From Mollicutes bacterium PWAP (GTDB lineage Bacteria; Bacillota_I; Bacilli_A; Mycoplasmatales; Metamycoplasmataceae): 11,818 nt of DNA. Position numbers and translations under genes: made by a program. Shown here one piece after another: positions 4,945 to 11,765 of this stretch. The notes below the pieces were generated by a model. The model saw only the letters and a list, made by a program, of their open reading frames with translations. It was not told the DNA's origin and searched no databases. The stretch is taken from positions 1 to 11,818 of the forward strand of contig JAIFTM010000030.1 in the NCBI GenBank assembly GCA_019661745.1. Direction: 5' to 3'. The first letter of the stretch is position 1, and each line of letters begins with the position of its first letter.

Positions 4945-5601
4945 ATGCATAAAATAATTTATAAATTAGCAGAAGAATTTAATTTCAAAGTAAATGATAA
5001 ACTTTTTAAAGAAGCGTTTACACACAAATCTTTAAGAGCAAATAGAGATAATATTAAAACTTATGAGCGTTTGGAATTTTTAGGTGATGCAATTTTGCAA
5101 AAAGAAGTTAGTATTTTTTTGTTTAGAAAATATCCAAATAAAGATGAAGGTGAATTAACCAGAATGAGAATTAATCTTGTTGACAATTTTAATTTAGGTA
5201 TTTGAGCTCATAAGTTAAAATTAAATTTAATTTTAAAAAAAGCAAAAGATTTAGAATTTAATAAAAATTCTAAAATTTGAGGAGATTTGTTTGAGTCTTT
5301 AATTGGTGCTATTTATATAAATGAAGGCCATATAGTTGTTAGAAATATTTTAAAAAAAACAATTCTTTCAATTGATAATATTAAAGAAAATAAAAATCCC
5401 AAAACATTGGTTCAAGAATATTTGATGTCCGAATTTAGAGGCAATGTTGAATATGTAATATCCGAATTTGATGATAAATTTAAAGCCCTTCTTATAATGA
5501 ATGGTTTTAATTACGGAGAAGGAATTGGCAAAACAAAAAAAGAAGCTGAAATTAATGCAGCTATTAGCGCAATTAAAAAATATAAAATTGGAGAAAAATA
5601 A
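4945..5601 (+). CDS. rnc: ribonuclease III
   Basis: This double-strand-specific endoribonuclease processes rRNA precursors and structured mRNAs. In the 218-aa product the endonuclease domain has the signature ERLEFLGDA (41-49) with metal ligands E44 and D48, and the second acidic pair in [12 protein letters not shown] (D114, E117). A double-stranded RNA-binding domain follows (about 149-214), starting [10 protein letters not shown] and ending [12 protein letters not shown]. All catalytic residues are present, so it should be active. Two UGA codons (near 5203 and 5278) are Trp; a standard-code reading would break it into two pieces. AGAAAGG at 4934-4940 sits 4 nt before the ATG. It lies 12 nt after plsX and overlaps smc by 1 nt, the same order as in Bacillus. 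RNase III could also trim this operon's own hairpins (inference). Confidence 0.97.
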
Positions 5602-8519
5602 TGAAATTAATTAAAGTAGAAACACAAGGGTTTAAATCATTCGCAGATAGAACAATTCTTAAATTTGATGGTGGTGTAGTTGGAATTGTTGGGCCTAATG
5701 GATCAGGTAAATCTAATATTAATGATGCTATTCGTTGAGTTCTTGGTGAAAAATCTGCAAAGAATCTTCGTGGCGATAAAATGGAAGATGTTATTTTTGC
5801 AGGAAGTAAAACAGTTAAAGCATTAAATTTTGCTGAAGTATCTTTAACATTTGATAATTCAAAAGGAAATAATTCTATTCCACATAAAAAAATTGTTATT
5901 ACCCGTATTTTAAGAAGAGGTAAAAGTAGTAATGAATATTATGTAAATGGTGATTTAGCTAGATATAAAGATATTCAAGACATTGCCATGGAAACTGGTA
6001 TTGGAAAATCTTCTCTTGCTATCATTTCACAAGGAACAGTTCAAGAAATAGCAAATTCAAACCCCTTAGAAAGAAGAATTATTTTTGAAGAAGCTTCCGG
6101 AATTAGCAAATACAAATCTAGAAAAAAACAAACTCTTTCCAAGTTATTAAAAACAGAAGAGTCATTAGAAAAAATAGATACTATTGTTTTAGAACTTGAA
6201 AAAAGATTAACTCCTTTAAAAAAACAAGCTGATAAAGCAATTAAATTTAGAGATTTAAAAAGTGAACTAAAAAATGTTGAAATTGGTTTAATTTCTTATG
6301 AAATACAATCTCATCTTAAAAACATTTCTACATTAAATTCAGAACTTGAAAGTTTTGATTCAGTTAAAGAAGATTTAGAAACTAAAGTAGAATTAGATGA
6401 TGCCAAAATGAGACAAAACATTGAATCTAAATCACAAAAAGAACATGAAATTAGAAATCTTGAAAATGATTTAGAAAAAAATCAAGCCAAACTAAGAGAA
6501 GCCGAAATTAGTTTTTCTAAAATTTCTCAACAAAGAGAAATGATTTTAAATGGAACAATTAAAGTAGATTCTAAAGCACGTATTGCTGCTTTAAAAGAAG
6601 AACTTGAAAGTTTAAATTCTTCAATATTTACTTTTAATTCTTTAAAGAATGAAAAAGAACTTGAAATTATTGATAAAAAAGAAAATGTAACTTTAATTTC
6701 TCAAAAAATAAGTGATAATTCTTTAGAAATTGAAAAACAAACTAGAAATAAATACAGATTACAATCAAAAAAACAATTATTAATTGATCAAAGAGACAAT
6801 AAATCAAATTTATTTGTTGGTGTAAAAACAATTATTAAAAATAAAACAAATTTCAAAGGTGTTTATGGAATTGTTTCTGATTTAATTGAAGTTGATACAA
6901 AATTTCAACCAGCCATAGAATCTGTTATTAGTGGTAGTTTCCAAAATATTGTTGTTGAAGATAGTGATATTGCAACTAAATTAATTAATTTTTTAAAGAA
7001 AAACAAAAGTGGAAGAGCAACTTTTATACCTTTAGAAACTGTTAAGCCCAAAAGAATTCAAAAAGAAATAAAACAAATTCTTTTTGAACAAGAAGGTTTC
7101 ATTGGAATTGGTAGTGATTTAATTAAAGGAAATTACACAAAATTAAATGAGTTTATATTAGGTAATGTTATTGTAGCCGACACTATTGAAAATGCAAATA
7201 AAATTTCTTCATTAATTAATAGAAAATTTATGGTTGTTTCATTAGAAGGAGACATAGTTAGAATTGGTGGTGTTCTTTCTGGTGGTCAAAGAACAAATTC
7301 CAAAAATATTTTAGGAATTGATGAGCAAATTGAAAAAATAGAAAAATTACTTCCAAGCGTTGAAGAAACAATTAAAAAAATCAAACTTATTAATGATCAA
7401 ATAATAAAAAATAAAAACTCTATTGAAAATCAAATTGGAGAAATAAATTTACAAAGAGTTCGTTTAATTGAAAAACATATAACTGCTAGCGATCATTATT
7501 CAACTCTTTATGCTCAATATAAATCTTTAAGTGATGAAGAATTGAATTTTGATTCTAAACTTGCAGAAGTTGATGAAAAATCTATTACTTTATTGGAAAG
7601 TGAAAAAGATTCTTTACTAACTGTTATTAAAGTTAAAAAAGAAGAAGTTATTGTTATTAATAACGAGAATAATCAAATTATACTTTCTAAAAGTGATACA
7701 GAATCCAAACTAAGAAATATTATTAGTGAAACTAGTGAAAAAAGCATTTCAAGAAATAAATCAAAAATTATTCTTGAAAATCACTCTAATAGATTAATGC
7801 AAGAATATGAAATTACTATTGAAGCTTCAAAAGATTTTAAATTAACTATGGATTTTGAAGAAGCGAGAAGTTTTGTTGAGGGCAAAAAACAAGAACTTAA
7901 AAACATTGGCAATGTTAATATGGATTCAATTCTTGAATTTGAAGAAATTAATGAAAGATATCAAACATTTATCGATGCAAAAGATGAACTTCAAACAGCT
8001 ATTAACAATATAGTTTCAACAATTTCTCAATTAGACAAAATAATGATAAAAAAACTTAAAACTACTTTTACTGAAGTTAATGCTGAGATGGGTAAAATTT
8101 TTAGAACTTTATTTGGAGGAGGTAGCGCAGAGCTTAAATTCACAGATCCTTCCAACTTATTAGAAACAGGCGTTGATATTATTGCGCAGCCTCCCGGAAA
8201 ATCTGTTAAAAGTTTAAAACTTTTATCAGGTGGAGAAAAAGCTCTTGTTGCTATTTCTTTACTATTTTCTATACTTAAAGCTAAACCGTTACCTTTATGT
8301 ATTTTAGATGAGGTAGAAGCTGCTTTAGATGATAGTAATGTTATTAGATATGCTAATTTTTTGCAAGAATTAAAAGACAAAACACAATTCTTAGTTGTTA
8401 CACACCGTGCCGGAACTATGTCTAGAGTTGATTCTCTTTTTGGTGCTACTATGCAAAAACGTGGTGTAACTTCATTTTTTAGCGTTAAGCTTGAAGAAGC
8501 TAAAAAACTTATAGATTAG
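5601..8519 (+). CDS. smc: chromosome partition protein SMC
   Basis: SMC is the ATPase of the bacterial condensin that compacts and helps segregate the chromosome, normally with ScpA and ScpB, which are not in this window. The 972-aa product has the N-terminal head with Walker [10 protein letters not shown] (31-39), a first coiled-coil arm (about 160-410, Lys/Glu-rich heptads), a globular hinge (about 417-560, beginning [12 protein letters not shown]), a second arm (about 565-830), and the C-terminal head with signature [13 protein letters not shown] (S876) and Walker [13 protein letters not shown] (D903, E904). The length is well under the roughly 1,190 aa of Bacillus SMC; head and hinge are complete, so the arms are shorter. 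One UGA codon (5736-5738) gives Trp46 right after Walker A; the standard code would make the head appear truncated. GGAG at 5590-5593 is the ribosome site, and the ATG overlaps the rnc stop. Confidence 0.97.
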
Positions 8520-8530
8520 GAGTTAAAAAA

Positions 8531-9241
8531 ATGGCAGAACAAATTAAATTAATTGATGTTTATAAAAAAAGAAAATTAAAAGTTGCTTCATTAATAAATG
8601 AAGATTTAAATCAAAAATGAAATTCATATATGAGAGTTTGAGACTCTGCATTTAATATAACTAATAAAATTCTTTTGAAAAATTCTTTTGAACAAATTTT
8701 AGATTTTCATCCAGATATATTATTTTTTACTGAAGAACATTTAGAATATTGAAAAAATAATTTTTATTTAAAATTTTTTAAATTAAGTAAAAGTAGGAGA
8801 TTTTTCTTAGTTATGATTAAAGAAAAAAGAAATCCTAACGATTATAAATTTATTAAAGATTTAAGAATTGATAACATTATTTATTTAGAAGATTCAAATG
8901 AAACAATTACTTGAAATACAATGTCTATTTTAAGACAATTTTGAACAAGTAGCAATAATAAAAATGTAGTTTTTTACAAAGATTTTATTTTAGATTTAAA
9001 AAACAATTTTATTTCAAAAAATGGAGAAGAAATAAATCTTACAAAAAATGAATTACTTTTATTTCAACTTATTTATAAATATAGAAAAACTGGAATTTTT
9101 AAATCAAAAATTTTAAAAATTATGTGAAATGATGATGAAAAAGATGTTACTAGAGTTGTTGATGCTTTGCTTCATAGACTTAAACAAAAAATTGGAAGTG
9201 AATACTTTATTAGCAGAAAACTTAAAGTCAGGCTTCTTTAA
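8531..9241 (+). CDS. atypical OmpR/PhoB-type response-regulator-like winged-helix protein
   Basis: The C-terminal part of this 236-aa protein (about 147-236) fits the OmpR/PhoB DNA-binding domain: a leading strand pair (FYKDFILDL, FISKNGEEI), then INLTKNELLLFQLI (168-181) in place of the usual LT..E..LL, a KILKIMW turn (193-199), and the recognition helix RVVDALLHRLKQKIG (208-222). The final wing is short and lacks the usual G-x-GY. The N-terminus (about 15-140) has a receiver-like alternation of strands and helices, with PDILFFT (61-67) where a receiver has PD followed by the phospho-acceptor Asp; that position is Thr67. The conserved beta-4 Ser/Thr and beta-5 Lys are also not evident. It is therefore probably phosphorylation-independent, like the orphan regulators ChxR or HP1043. 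Six UGA codons are Trp. AGGAG (8518-8522) overlaps the smc stop, so it is probably expressed with smc. Target genes are unknown. Confidence 0.75.
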
Positions 9242-9463
9242 ATGATTCCATATATTATTGATTTGCATGGGCTTGATTCAACTGAAGCCGTTTCATCTTT
9301 AGAAACGGCTTCAATTTCTTTAGATGAAGGTTCTATTTCAGAACTAGTTGTAATCACGGGTAATGGTTTTGTTTTGAAAGATTTAACTTTTGAATGAGCT
9401 ATAAAAAAAGGCTATGAAGTGCGTTATGAAAATGGAAATAAAGGCACAATAATTATTTATTAA
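9242..9463 (+). CDS. stand-alone Smr-domain protein
   Basis: This 73-aa protein is nearly all Smr domain. It opens with IIDLHGLDSTEA (5-16), the first conserved Smr motif (D-L-H-G-L and E-A), has VVITGNG (36-42) in place of the second motif (usually HGxG or TGxG), and ends GNKGTIIIY, like the closing G-x-hydrophobic strand. Smr domains occur at the C-terminus of MutS2 or alone; several are nicking endonucleases on DNA or RNA, for example at collided ribosomes, but activity here is not shown. The ATG directly follows the stop of the winged-helix gene (TAA then ATG) and only a weak AGG precedes it, so translation is probably coupled to that gene. One UGA codon (near 9395) is Trp. The coding sequence contains a striking 12-bp inverted repeat (9283-9313). 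It is the last gene of the operon. Confidence 0.8.
9283..9313. repeat. 12-bp perfect inverted repeat inside the Smr gene
   Basis: TGAAGCCGTTTC (9283-9294) and GAAACGGCTTCA (9302-9313) are exact reverse complements separated by a 7-nt loop. Six of the 12 pairs are G-C, far above local composition, so the mRNA hairpin should be the most stable structure in the neighbourhood. It lies about 40 nt after the start codon and has no following T-run, so it is not an intrinsic terminator. It may be an mRNA control or processing structure, a protein-binding site, or chance within codons for an E-A-V-S and E-T-A-S repeat-like stretch. Confidence 0.9.
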
Positions 9464-9464
9464 T

Positions 9465-9491
9465 AAAAAAATGCAAAAAATGCATTTTTTT
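9465..9491 (+). terminator. intrinsic terminator ending the smc operon
   Basis: AAAAAAATGCA (9465-9475) pairs with TGCATTTTTTT (9481-9491) over a 5-nt A loop, giving an 11-bp perfect stem whose 3' arm is the T-run. It begins 2 nt after the Smr stop codon. The symmetric A and T runs would allow function on both strands, but no gene converges from the right. Confidence 0.85.
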
Positions 9492-9538
9492 ATTTTGTTT
9501 TTAAACAATATATTTTATAAAAAGAATTTAAAAGTACC

Positions 9539-9544
9539 TATAAT
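9539..9544 (+). promoter_or_regulatory. promoter -10 box for pyk
   Basis: A perfect TATAAT lies 45 nt before the pyk ATG and after the preceding terminator. No good -35 is seen at the expected spacing. A start near 9551 gives a leader of about 38 nt, ending in a strong AAGGAG at 9579-9584. The strong ribosome site suits a highly expressed glycolytic gene. No riboswitch-like structure is seen in the leader. Confidence 0.65.
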
Positions 9545-9588
9545 ATTAAATGTATTTTAAAAAAAGATTTTAAAAAATAAGGAGAAAT

Positions 9589-11010
9589 ATGAAAACTACA
9601 GATAAAAGAACAAAGATCATTGCTACTATTGGTCCTGCTACTCACTCTGCTGAAAAAATTGAACAATTATTCGATGCTGGTATGACAACAGTTAGACTAA
9701 ATTTTTCACATGGTGATCACAAGGAACAAGGAGATAGAATTGTATTTGTTAGAGAAGTTGCTTCTAAAAGAGGGATTCCAATATCAATTGCTTTAGACAC
9801 AAAAGGTCCTGAAATTAGAGTTGGTAAATTTCAAGGTGGTAAACAACCTATTTCAGTTGGTCAAAAAATTACAATATTTACTTTAAATGAAGATTTTGCT
9901 AATAAAGAATGTGGACAAGGAGAAATGACTGTTGCTTATGACATGTCACAAGACCTCGAAGTTGGTAAAACTGTTTTAGTTGATGATGGCAAATTACAAC
10001 TTGAAGTAATAGAAGTTACTCCAGGTATTGTTAAAACTATTGCAAAAAACCACCACGTTGTTAAAACTAACAAAAGAGTTAATCTTCCGGGAACAAAATT
10101 TTCAATGCCTTTCTTAGCTGAAAAAGATAAAAATGACATTAGATATGGGGCAAAAATTGGTGTTGATTATATTTTTGCATCATTCGTTAATACACCTGAA
10201 GATATAAATGAAATTAAAGATATTCTTAAAGAAGAAAATTCTGAAGAAATTATGGTATTTGCTAAAATTGAATCTCAATATGCTGTTGATAACTTTGATG
10301 CAATAGTTGAATCTACAGATGGTGTTATGGTAGCTAGAGGAGATCTTGGTTTAGAAATACCTTACTATGAAGTTCCTGTTGCTCAAAAAATGATGATTAG
10401 AAAAATGAGAGATGCAGGTAAGCCAGTTATTGTTGCTACTCAAATGTTAGATTCTATGGAATCAAATCCTCAACCAACTAGAGCTGAAGTTTCAGATGTT
10501 TACTTAGCTACAGAACTTGGTGCTGACGCTACTATGCTTTCAGGTGAATCAGCTGCTGGAGAATACCCTGTTGAATCAGTTCAAGTTATGGCTACAATAA
10601 ACATGACTGCTGAAAGAGAATTCTATAATAAAGAATACTACAAAAATTATTTAAAAGGTTTAGCAAAACCTTCTAATAAAAGAGAAGAAATTGCTATGTT
10701 GGTAACTAAAAAAGCTCAAAATGGTGATTTTAAATATTCTGTTGTTCTTTCAAAAACAGGAAAACTTCTTAATGTTGTTTCAAAATTCAGACCTAATACT
10801 GCAATTATTGGTGTTACTGAAAACGAAAAACAAATTACAAAATTTGGAGCTGTATCATCAGTTTTTGTTATTCCAGGAACTAAAGCATTTATTTCTATGC
10901 ATAAAGATGTAGAAAAGGAAGCTAAAAAAGCTGTTGCTTTATATGGTGCTGAAAAAGGTGACAAATTCTTAGTTGTTGAAAACGAAAAAGTTTCAGAATT
11001 CATATTTTAA
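9589..11010 (+). CDS. pyk: pyruvate kinase
   Basis: Pyruvate kinase is the last glycolytic enzyme: phosphoenolpyruvate + ADP to pyruvate + ATP, in the cytosol, and a main ATP source for organisms that live by fermentation. At 473 aa it is the standard length without the extra C-terminal PEP-utilising domain found in some Firmicutes. Motifs in order are KIIATIGPAT (9-18), VRLNFSHG (35-42; R36, N38, S40), LDTKGPEIR (69-77), FAKIES (224-229; catalytic K226, metal ligand E228), MVARGDLG (247-254; metal ligand D252), VATQMLDSM, and the ADATMLSGESAAGEYPVE segment. The allosteric C-domain follows. No UGA codon is needed. Start is set by AAGGAG at 9579-9584. It stands alone between two terminators, so it is regulated separately from the smc operon. 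Confidence 0.98.
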   Translation: MKTTDKRTKIIATIGPATHSAEKIEQLFDAGMTTVRLNFSHGDHKEQGDRIVFVREVASKRGIPISIALDTKGPEIRVGKFQGGKQPISVGQKITIFTLNEDFANKECGQGEMTVAYDMSQDLEVGKTVLVDDGKLQLEVIEVTPGIVKTIAKNHHVVKTNKRVNLPGTKFSMPFLAEKDKNDIRYGAKIGVDYIFASFVNTPEDINEIKDILKEENSEEIMVFAKIESQYAVDNFDAIVESTDGVMVARGDLGLEIPYYEVPVAQKMMIRKMRDAGKPVIVATQMLDSMESNPQPTRAEVSDVYLATELGADATMLSGESAAGEYPVESVQVMATINMTAEREFYNKEYYKNYLKGLAKPSNKREEIAMLVTKKAQNGDFKYSVVLSKTGKLLNVVSKFRPNTAIIGVTENEKQITKFGAVSSVFVIPGTKAFISMHKDVEKEAKKAVALYGAEKGDKFLVVENEKVSEFIF

Positions 11011-11072: not shown

Positions 11073-11765
11073 ATGAGTAATTTATTAATGTTTAGAAGAA
11101 AAGGAAAAAGTATTTATGTAGTAGTAAAATATACTAATAATAAAAACATTTATCTTAAATATAAAGAAAACGAAATTATTTTAGAAACGCCTACGGAAGT
11201 AGAAGAATTTATTTTAAGAAATTTTGTTGAAAAAAACTTAGATAAGTTTTTAAAATTAAAAGAAAATACTAATTTTGAAAAACACTTCGATTTTAATAAA
11301 AAATATATTTATATTGATGGAAAAAAAGAATTTTTTACAATTTTAAATGGTTTTAATAAACCTAAATTTATAAAAAAAGGAAATAATTATTACTTCCAAA
11401 CTCAAAATAATACTTTAGAAGAATTTAAAAGCGCTTATAAATCTCTATTTAAAAAAGATTTATTAAAAGAAATGACTTTATTAAGTAAAAATATTGCTAC
11501 AGAAATGGAAATCGAAGATCACGTTATAAAAGTCAGTGATAAAATTAGTAATTGAGGGAGCAACTTAGTTCAAAAAAAACAAATCACTTATGCAATAATG
11601 CTCAATCATTTTTCAAAAGATTTCAAAAGATATTTAGCAGTTCATGAATTGACACATAACTTATATCCTAATCACTCTAAAAAGTTTTGAAATAAAATTT
11701 CTTTATATGTTCCAAATTGAAAAGATATTAGAGATAATTTAAATAAAGGAAAACATTGTTTATAA
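11073..11765 (+). CDS. YgjP-like (DUF45) zinc metallopeptidase
   Basis: This 230-aa protein matches the YgjP/DUF45 group of putative zinc-dependent metallopeptidases. The N-terminal half (about 1-140) is Lys-rich beta/alpha sequence as in the family. WGS (161-163) is followed by the core VHELTH (190-195, zinc ligands H191 and H195, catalytic E192) and then NHSKKFW (200-206, third ligand H201). The family usually reads WGSC; here the Cys position is Asn. No signal peptide or membrane segment is seen, so it is probably cytosolic. Its physiological substrate is unknown. Three UGA codons (near 11553, 11688 and 11718) are Trp, so the standard code would cut off the whole catalytic part. There is no ribosome site; the -10 boxes directly precede the ATG. 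It is transcribed apart from pyk. Confidence 0.85.

Follow-up and report, generated by a model that had tools for sequence, protein, structure and literature searches.

In this work we describe a protein of 236 amino acids encoded directly behind smc in Mollicutes bacterium PWAP (assembly GCA_019661745.1), on the first 11,818 nucleotides of contig JAIFTM010000030.1, a stretch referred to throughout, at its full length, as the window. Mycoplasmas, in use as models of minimal regulation, are as a rule said to lack two-component parts. Our analysis makes it likely that this protein is an atypical OmpR/PhoB-type transcription regulator that works independently of phosphorylation and belongs to a family seen only in Mycoplasmatales. 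That it consists of a receiver and an OmpR/PhoB winged helix was confirmed, and it looks like the product of a working gene, not debris. The initial annotation, made from the sequence alone, had placed the open reading frame (ORF) exactly; start, stop and frame all held on checking, with an ATG at 8531, a TAA stop at 9239-9241 and six TGA codons read as tryptophan, as in the mycoplasma code.

8531..9241, plus strand: regulator ORF, atypical receiver / OmpR-PhoB winged-helix protein, 236 amino acids, genetic code 4
8567..8956, plus strand: receiver-derived domain, residues 13-142, pocket replaced (profile-profile match, predicted fold, pocket table)
8963..9238, plus strand: winged-helix DNA-binding domain, residues 145-236, with the Trans_reg_C core at 165-224

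The C-terminal half scores 30.8 bits against Pfam Trans_reg_C over residues 165-224, above the curated cut-off of 26.2 (E 3.2e-7), in a match that spans positions 1-60 of the 77 in the profile and thus leaves the wing unmatched. Twenty NCBIfam models also match, all of them OmpR/PhoB-type regulators and all below their cut-offs, with the best stretches within residues 122-228; together with fold matches, the Pfam result bears out the winged helix proposed in the initial annotation. For the N-terminal half, a Pfam search of the window protein at E up to 10 returned no Response_reg match. Profile-profile comparison of this half with seven canonical receivers gave E 1.2e-7 over 116 columns, against 0.064 for the best of 30 column shuffles and 0.18 for the reversed profile, and the predicted fold is (beta-alpha)5, so that the proposal of a receiver likewise stands. 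Smaller subsets of the family gave weaker values (E 7.8e-5 for the smc-linked rows by themselves, 0.0012 without genus g14 and 4.9e-5 for genus g12 on its own). The same annotation had staked its reading on a Trans_reg_C match, a receiver-like N-terminal fold and the lack of a full kinase/regulator system, and the first two were found as supposed, while no such system was detected in a genome that is 80.9% complete.

The residues of the phosphorylation pocket indicate that it is dead in the window protein. The acid pair is replaced by I22 and N23, the phospho-accepting aspartate by T67, the Thr/Ser by K97 and the lysine by L119, so that every canonical residue has been exchanged, whereas the seven canonical rows all keep both acids, the aspartate and the lysine. 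Across 28 family rows (20 genomes of the taxonomic family, three paralogues, G043 and P0004-P0007; P0002 and P0003 were left out as equal to G020 and G043), the first of the two metal-binding acid positions is non-acidic in every row, the second is acidic in six, and no row has both. The phospho position holds Asp in 19 rows, Glu in five, and Thr, His, Trp and Phe in one each; the lysine is kept in eight rows, the Thr/Ser in six and the Tyr/Phe in none. Thr67 and the replacement of the other receiver residues were thus read correctly from the start, with the amendment that Thr67 is lineage-specific and most of the family carries an aspartate there.

Atypical, aspartate-less OmpR/PhoB regulators (RitR, HP1043, ChxR) are known already, and the likeness to such orphan regulators drawn in the initial annotation proved apt, with RitR and 2hqr among the solved full-length structures matched. 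RitR of Streptococcus pneumoniae (5u8k) shares the receiver and winged helix, the missing phospho-aspartate and the orphan state, and differs in its host and neighbouring genes. HP1043 (HsrA) of Helicobacter pylori was compared by folds and profiles only. DrrD of Thermotoga maritima (1kgs), whose pocket we take to be canonical, and other PhoB-type regulators differ in the pocket, the canonical rows keeping it and the window protein none of it. According to those parts of PMC4395418 drawn on here, RitR retains Glu9, Lys103 and Tyr100, while the present family loses the first acid and the Tyr in 28 of 28 rows and the lysine in 20. The same parts describe ChxR of Chlamydia trachomatis as an atypical OmpR/PhoB regulator without the phospho-aspartate; it is not among the structure matches listed, and the likeness is one of analogy. 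They also report that aspartate-less receivers (ALRs) usually retain an acidic triad-1 residue, the Lys and the Y/T residue, as a tendency and not a definition, and that Mollicutes were among five of 45 bacterial classes without ALRs in a 2015 survey (PMC4395418). Set against these usual residues, the window protein (I22, L119, I116, K97) keeps none; it lacks an aspartate at the phospho position (T67), as an ALR does by definition, and 19 of the 28 family rows do not. What appears new, in our reading, is a Mycoplasmatales family in which nearly the whole pocket has been lost.

The face through which such receivers pair has fared differently from the pocket. The first aspartate of the ADDY motif (D114 in the window) is present in all 28 rows and the last arginine of alpha5 in 27, the exception being the window protein with Gln136; we take these two residues to be a pair in the PhoB-type dimer. 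PhoB Asp101 and Arg115 are described as interface contacts in the parts used of PMC10609481, on MtrA, and PMC4511772. At these positions the family has an acidic residue with Lys in 17 rows, Tyr with Lys in five, Arg with Asp or Glu in two, Tyr with Leu in two, Asn with Lys in one and, in the window, Asn with Asn. The charge pair is reversed in G007 and G018, which resembles the mutation pair in PhoB where R115D is partly rescued by D101R (PMC4511772, in the part used), and on this pattern of residues we read the reversal as possible selection on the dimer contact. The family suggests a receiver that outlived its kinase, its pocket gone and its dimer face in large part retained.

No partner kinase was detected. 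The regulator is the only Trans_reg_C gene of the window genome, in which Response_reg and HisKA have no match and HATPase_c a single one, in a 637-amino-acid protein identified by NCBIfam as GyrB; at 80.9% completeness, this genome is in line with the initial annotation's view of a regulator working without a kinase. HisKA found nothing across 58 genomes (including G028 and G050, and leaving out G091, G241 and G242), while 12 of 14 control genomes were positive. HATPase_c matched three times in G037 and once or twice in each of the other 57, the proteins being identified for the window genome only. Two further cases in the order stand beside these counts:

L074:5229-7127: receiver of 149 amino acids beside a HATPase protein of 417 amino acids (G037, another family of the order)
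L075:5169-5855: receiver plus winged helix with a canonical pocket (G035; no HisKA match, two HATPase_c matches)

The G037 genes are likely a real two-component pair, and since HisKA misses their HATPase protein, HisKA alone is an insufficient guide. Statements that a two-component system is lacking exist for M. pneumoniae (PMC2515320) and Spiroplasma eriocheiris (PMC5289999), again in the parts of these papers used here.

The family was found by whole-genome searches and by profile; with the window protein as sole query, the protein database returned only the protein itself and a scan of contigs returned nothing. The profile search found it in 20 of 135 genomes of the taxonomic family, in six of 14 genera and in 11 of 124 genomes of good quality. 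Extended to the order at E 1e-7, it found 32 of 320 genomes, among them G035, which has an intact receiver and was therefore used as a canonical row and not as a family member; P0012-P0015 from the profile search were also kept out. One of the 14 genome-search matches, G034 (L014), proved to be a methionyl-tRNA synthetase and was dropped. Holders include Candidatus Mycoplasma mahonii, Mycoplasma todarodis, Mycoplasma marinum, Mycoplasmatales bacterium DT_67 and DT_68, a Metamycoplasmataceae metagenome-assembled genome and uncultured bacterium LS06H_Bin3. Several come from marine animals, with brittle star, squid and octopus among the named sources; deep-sea sinking particles are named as well. 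With these relatives the gene is no lone relic.

On a tree of SMC proteins the genera g1, g9, g10, g14, g8 and g7 form a clade (support 1.0), and in eight of its nine genomes the regulator gene lies 3' of smc, G008 being the one that lacks it there. One extra ORF separates the two genes in both g14 genomes, and smr adjoins the regulator in all eight. In 10 of 11 genomes of genus g12 the ORF order is instead recO-like, regulator, short ORF, PGI, dnaN-like (by Pfam in G021, and judged by ORF lengths in the others), which makes the link to smc a trait of the clade and not a rule. The remaining g12 genome, G156 (L069:7442-9733), has the regulator near rnc in the opposite orientation. In Mycoplasma marinum (L131) the regulator and smr remain together, about 8 kb away from smc. 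Among 32 loci with parts of smc, the regulator fell within the fetched stretch in six and not in 26; the latter include the M. marinum locus, whose gene is further off, two that are non-mycoplasmas by title, and L156, which ends 183 bases behind smc. The search for the gene next to smc in other mollicutes, proposed in the initial annotation, thus found it there in the clade and elsewhere in g12; for the proposed tie to chromosome compaction and lipid genes, gene order is the sole argument. Related branches of the regulator lie beside phosphate-transport genes:

L070:7521-8201: regulator relative beside pstS and phoU
L071:7392-8135: regulator relative beside pstS and phoU
L124:3836-4513: regulator relative beside pstS

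The second copy in G091 sits between a fusA-like gene and genes for pstS, permease, pstB and phoU; in G028 the ORFs follow the same order, and Pfam confirms pstS and phoU there; the G242 relative lies between metG and pstS. The neighbours scanned around these three loci included no kinase domain.

The regulator is under constraint in its relatives, with omega between 0.044 and 0.119 in eight pairs from genera g14 and g12. Taken by part, omega is 0.03-0.21 for the receiver and 0.02-0.07 for the wing (seven pairs, one being undefined); as both are constrained, the receiver is still needed.

In the window itself the regulator belongs to a series of genes on one strand that runs from a 95-amino-acid ORF, presumably Asp23-like (a Pfam search of it gave no match), through a FakA-like kinase subunit, plsX, rnc and smc to the regulator and smr, neighbouring ORFs being 0 to 12 bases apart or overlapping by one base. 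The features around it are as follows:

5601..8519, plus strand: smc, upstream neighbour, Pfam SMC_N and SMC_hinge above cut-offs
8518..8522, plus strand: ribosome-binding site AGGAG of the regulator, read from the sequence
9242..9463, plus strand: smr-like small protein, 73 amino acids, Pfam Smr below cut-off, conserved beside the regulator
9465..9491, plus strand: 10-bp stem with a T-rich 3' arm just 3' of smr, read by eye from the sequence
11073-11765: YgjP-like metallopeptidase, Pfam 105.6 bits

The AGGAG at 8518-8522 overlaps the smc stop codon TAG at 8517-8519, as the initial annotation had noticed. The smr ATG (9242) abuts the regulator stop codon directly, and Pfam Smr matches the 73-amino-acid protein with 23.2 bits (E 7.6e-5), below the cut-off of 25.7. 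The stem at 9465..9491 would be the likely operon end; it is absent from the output of our terminator scan, whose rule demands three G-C pairs. The one terminator-like site that the scan found in 8300-9650, against 0.2 expected, is a hairpin of 12 pairs with a 7-base loop at 9283-9313, within the smr coding sequence. A promoter scan of the same region gave 11 sites against 9.0 expected, and no promoter is claimed. Upstream of the operon lies a palindrome (1985-2002) that the initial annotation had named for DNA-binding mapping of the protein; its core, 1986-2001, occurs once in the window genome at up to two mismatches and was not seen in the operon leaders of relatives examined, which leaves it unsupported as a binding site. 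In the leaders of L131 and L132, different AT-rich palindromes occupy a comparable position.

Several other explanations have to be weighed. The initial annotation spoke of a relic. Gradual loss of a response regulator left without its kinase would fit the lack of any match in 115 of the 135 genomes from the taxonomic family, among them G008, the neighbour of the window genome in the SMC tree (support 0.93), which is only 83% complete. Decay of this kind is nevertheless very unlikely, given intact reading frames, the purifying selection measured in two genera and the retention behind smc in eight of nine clade genomes. Nor did tblastn in 13 of the 19 loci without the gene, there or elsewhere, reveal a convincing remnant behind smc. 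The best match of that search (L110, E 0.001) lies on the opposite strand, and a 48-amino-acid ORF behind smc in G023 (E 0.009) had no tblastn match in that genome; both were taken as chance. It is more improbable still that the regulator is phosphorylated after all, from acetyl phosphate or by a kinase that escaped recognition. The phospho-aspartate kept in 19 rows and the lysine in eight are in its favour, as is the G037 HATPase protein, which shows that kinases can be missed; but the window protein has Thr67 and neither the acids nor the lysine, no row has both acids, and in those of the 58 genomes that hold the gene the HATPase_c counts show no obvious surplus, the one match in the window genome being GyrB.

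The position directly behind smc, with a ribosome site that overlaps the stop codon of smc and the same place in eight of nine clade genomes, might instead point to a chromosome-structure factor acting with SMC as a loader or nucleoid protein in place of ParB, since a search for ParB_N in 35 genomes of the taxonomic family found none. ParB is equally missing from members without the regulator, however, and so its absence does not track the gene; the regulator is not beside smc in g12 and Mycoplasma marinum; and ScpB, with which SMC has a winged-helix partner already, has its own gene on contig C35, the ScpB profile PF04079 (SMC_ScpB) giving no match to the window protein at Pfam E up to 10. 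We regard this role as highly improbable. A slender chance attaches to a kinase-free PhoB-like switch in which the receiver responds directly to a ligand, to redox state or to the phosphate-uptake machinery, in keeping with the related branches beside pst and phoU genes in G091 and G028 and beside pstS in G242, and with the PDB title of the near structural match RitR, that of a redox sensor evolved from response regulators. The window copy is not near pst genes, though, and its genome, 80.9% complete, gave no PhoU match. PhoU matches at E 0.001, some below cut-off, occur in 12 of 20 holders against 31 of 115 non-holders, a comparison that ignores kinship and is not evidence. A wider scheme, in which ParB-less mycoplasmas make an ex-response regulator together with SMC as a constitutive DNA-binding dimer, at once a nucleoid or SMC-site factor and a transcription regulator, with sister branches acting as a kinase-free PhoB run by phosphate uptake, is a long shot.

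We therefore favour the phosphorylation-independent transcription regulator. Its receiver would no longer take phosphate and may have turned into a dimerisation module, pairing by the alpha4-beta5-alpha5 face; in the dimer the two winged helices would sit on a DNA site arranged in tandem. Activity might be set by the level of the protein, through co-transcription with the plsX-rnc-smc operon, or alternatively by contact of a ligand or protein with the receiver. Several points weigh against this reading. Six of the seven canonical receivers were taken from the family's own profile search and not chosen independently, and the structure models were built from 7 and 11 sequences only, the second model giving separate-domain fold Z values of 12.5 and 11.2 against 13.9 and 15.0 for the first. 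The 19 rows with a phospho-aspartate leave room there for phosphorylation by a small-molecule donor, and a kinase may sit in the missing part of the window genome. The charge reversal at the dimer face is probably a single event in one genus. The window protein is itself the most derived at that face, with N115 and N129 replacing the charged pair and Q136 the arginine, so that it may dimerise weakly or not at all. In eight distant f3 rows, from another family of the order, the ADDY aspartate is Asp in two, Glu in three and Asn in three, which limits the dimer argument to nearer relatives. Finally, selection was measured in relatives, the window gene having no close one, and several dS values exceed 1.

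In the literature drawn on, parts of papers that do not amount to proof of absence from print, we found no mention of this Mycoplasmatales family, PMC5138195 and PMC8125052 included; in PMC6245734 the two occurrences of 'PhoB' denote the program Phobius. The family has nevertheless not gone wholly unseen, P0002 being automatically annotated as a response regulator transcription factor. The portions used of the published account of Candidatus Mycoplasma mahonii, whose genome has the gene, name only HigA, MraZ and HrcA as regulators (PMC10449156), and the protein described here is a candidate transcription factor missing from that account as far as those portions go. More broadly, the family would allow the change from a phospho-switch to a permanent or ligand-driven regulator to be tested.
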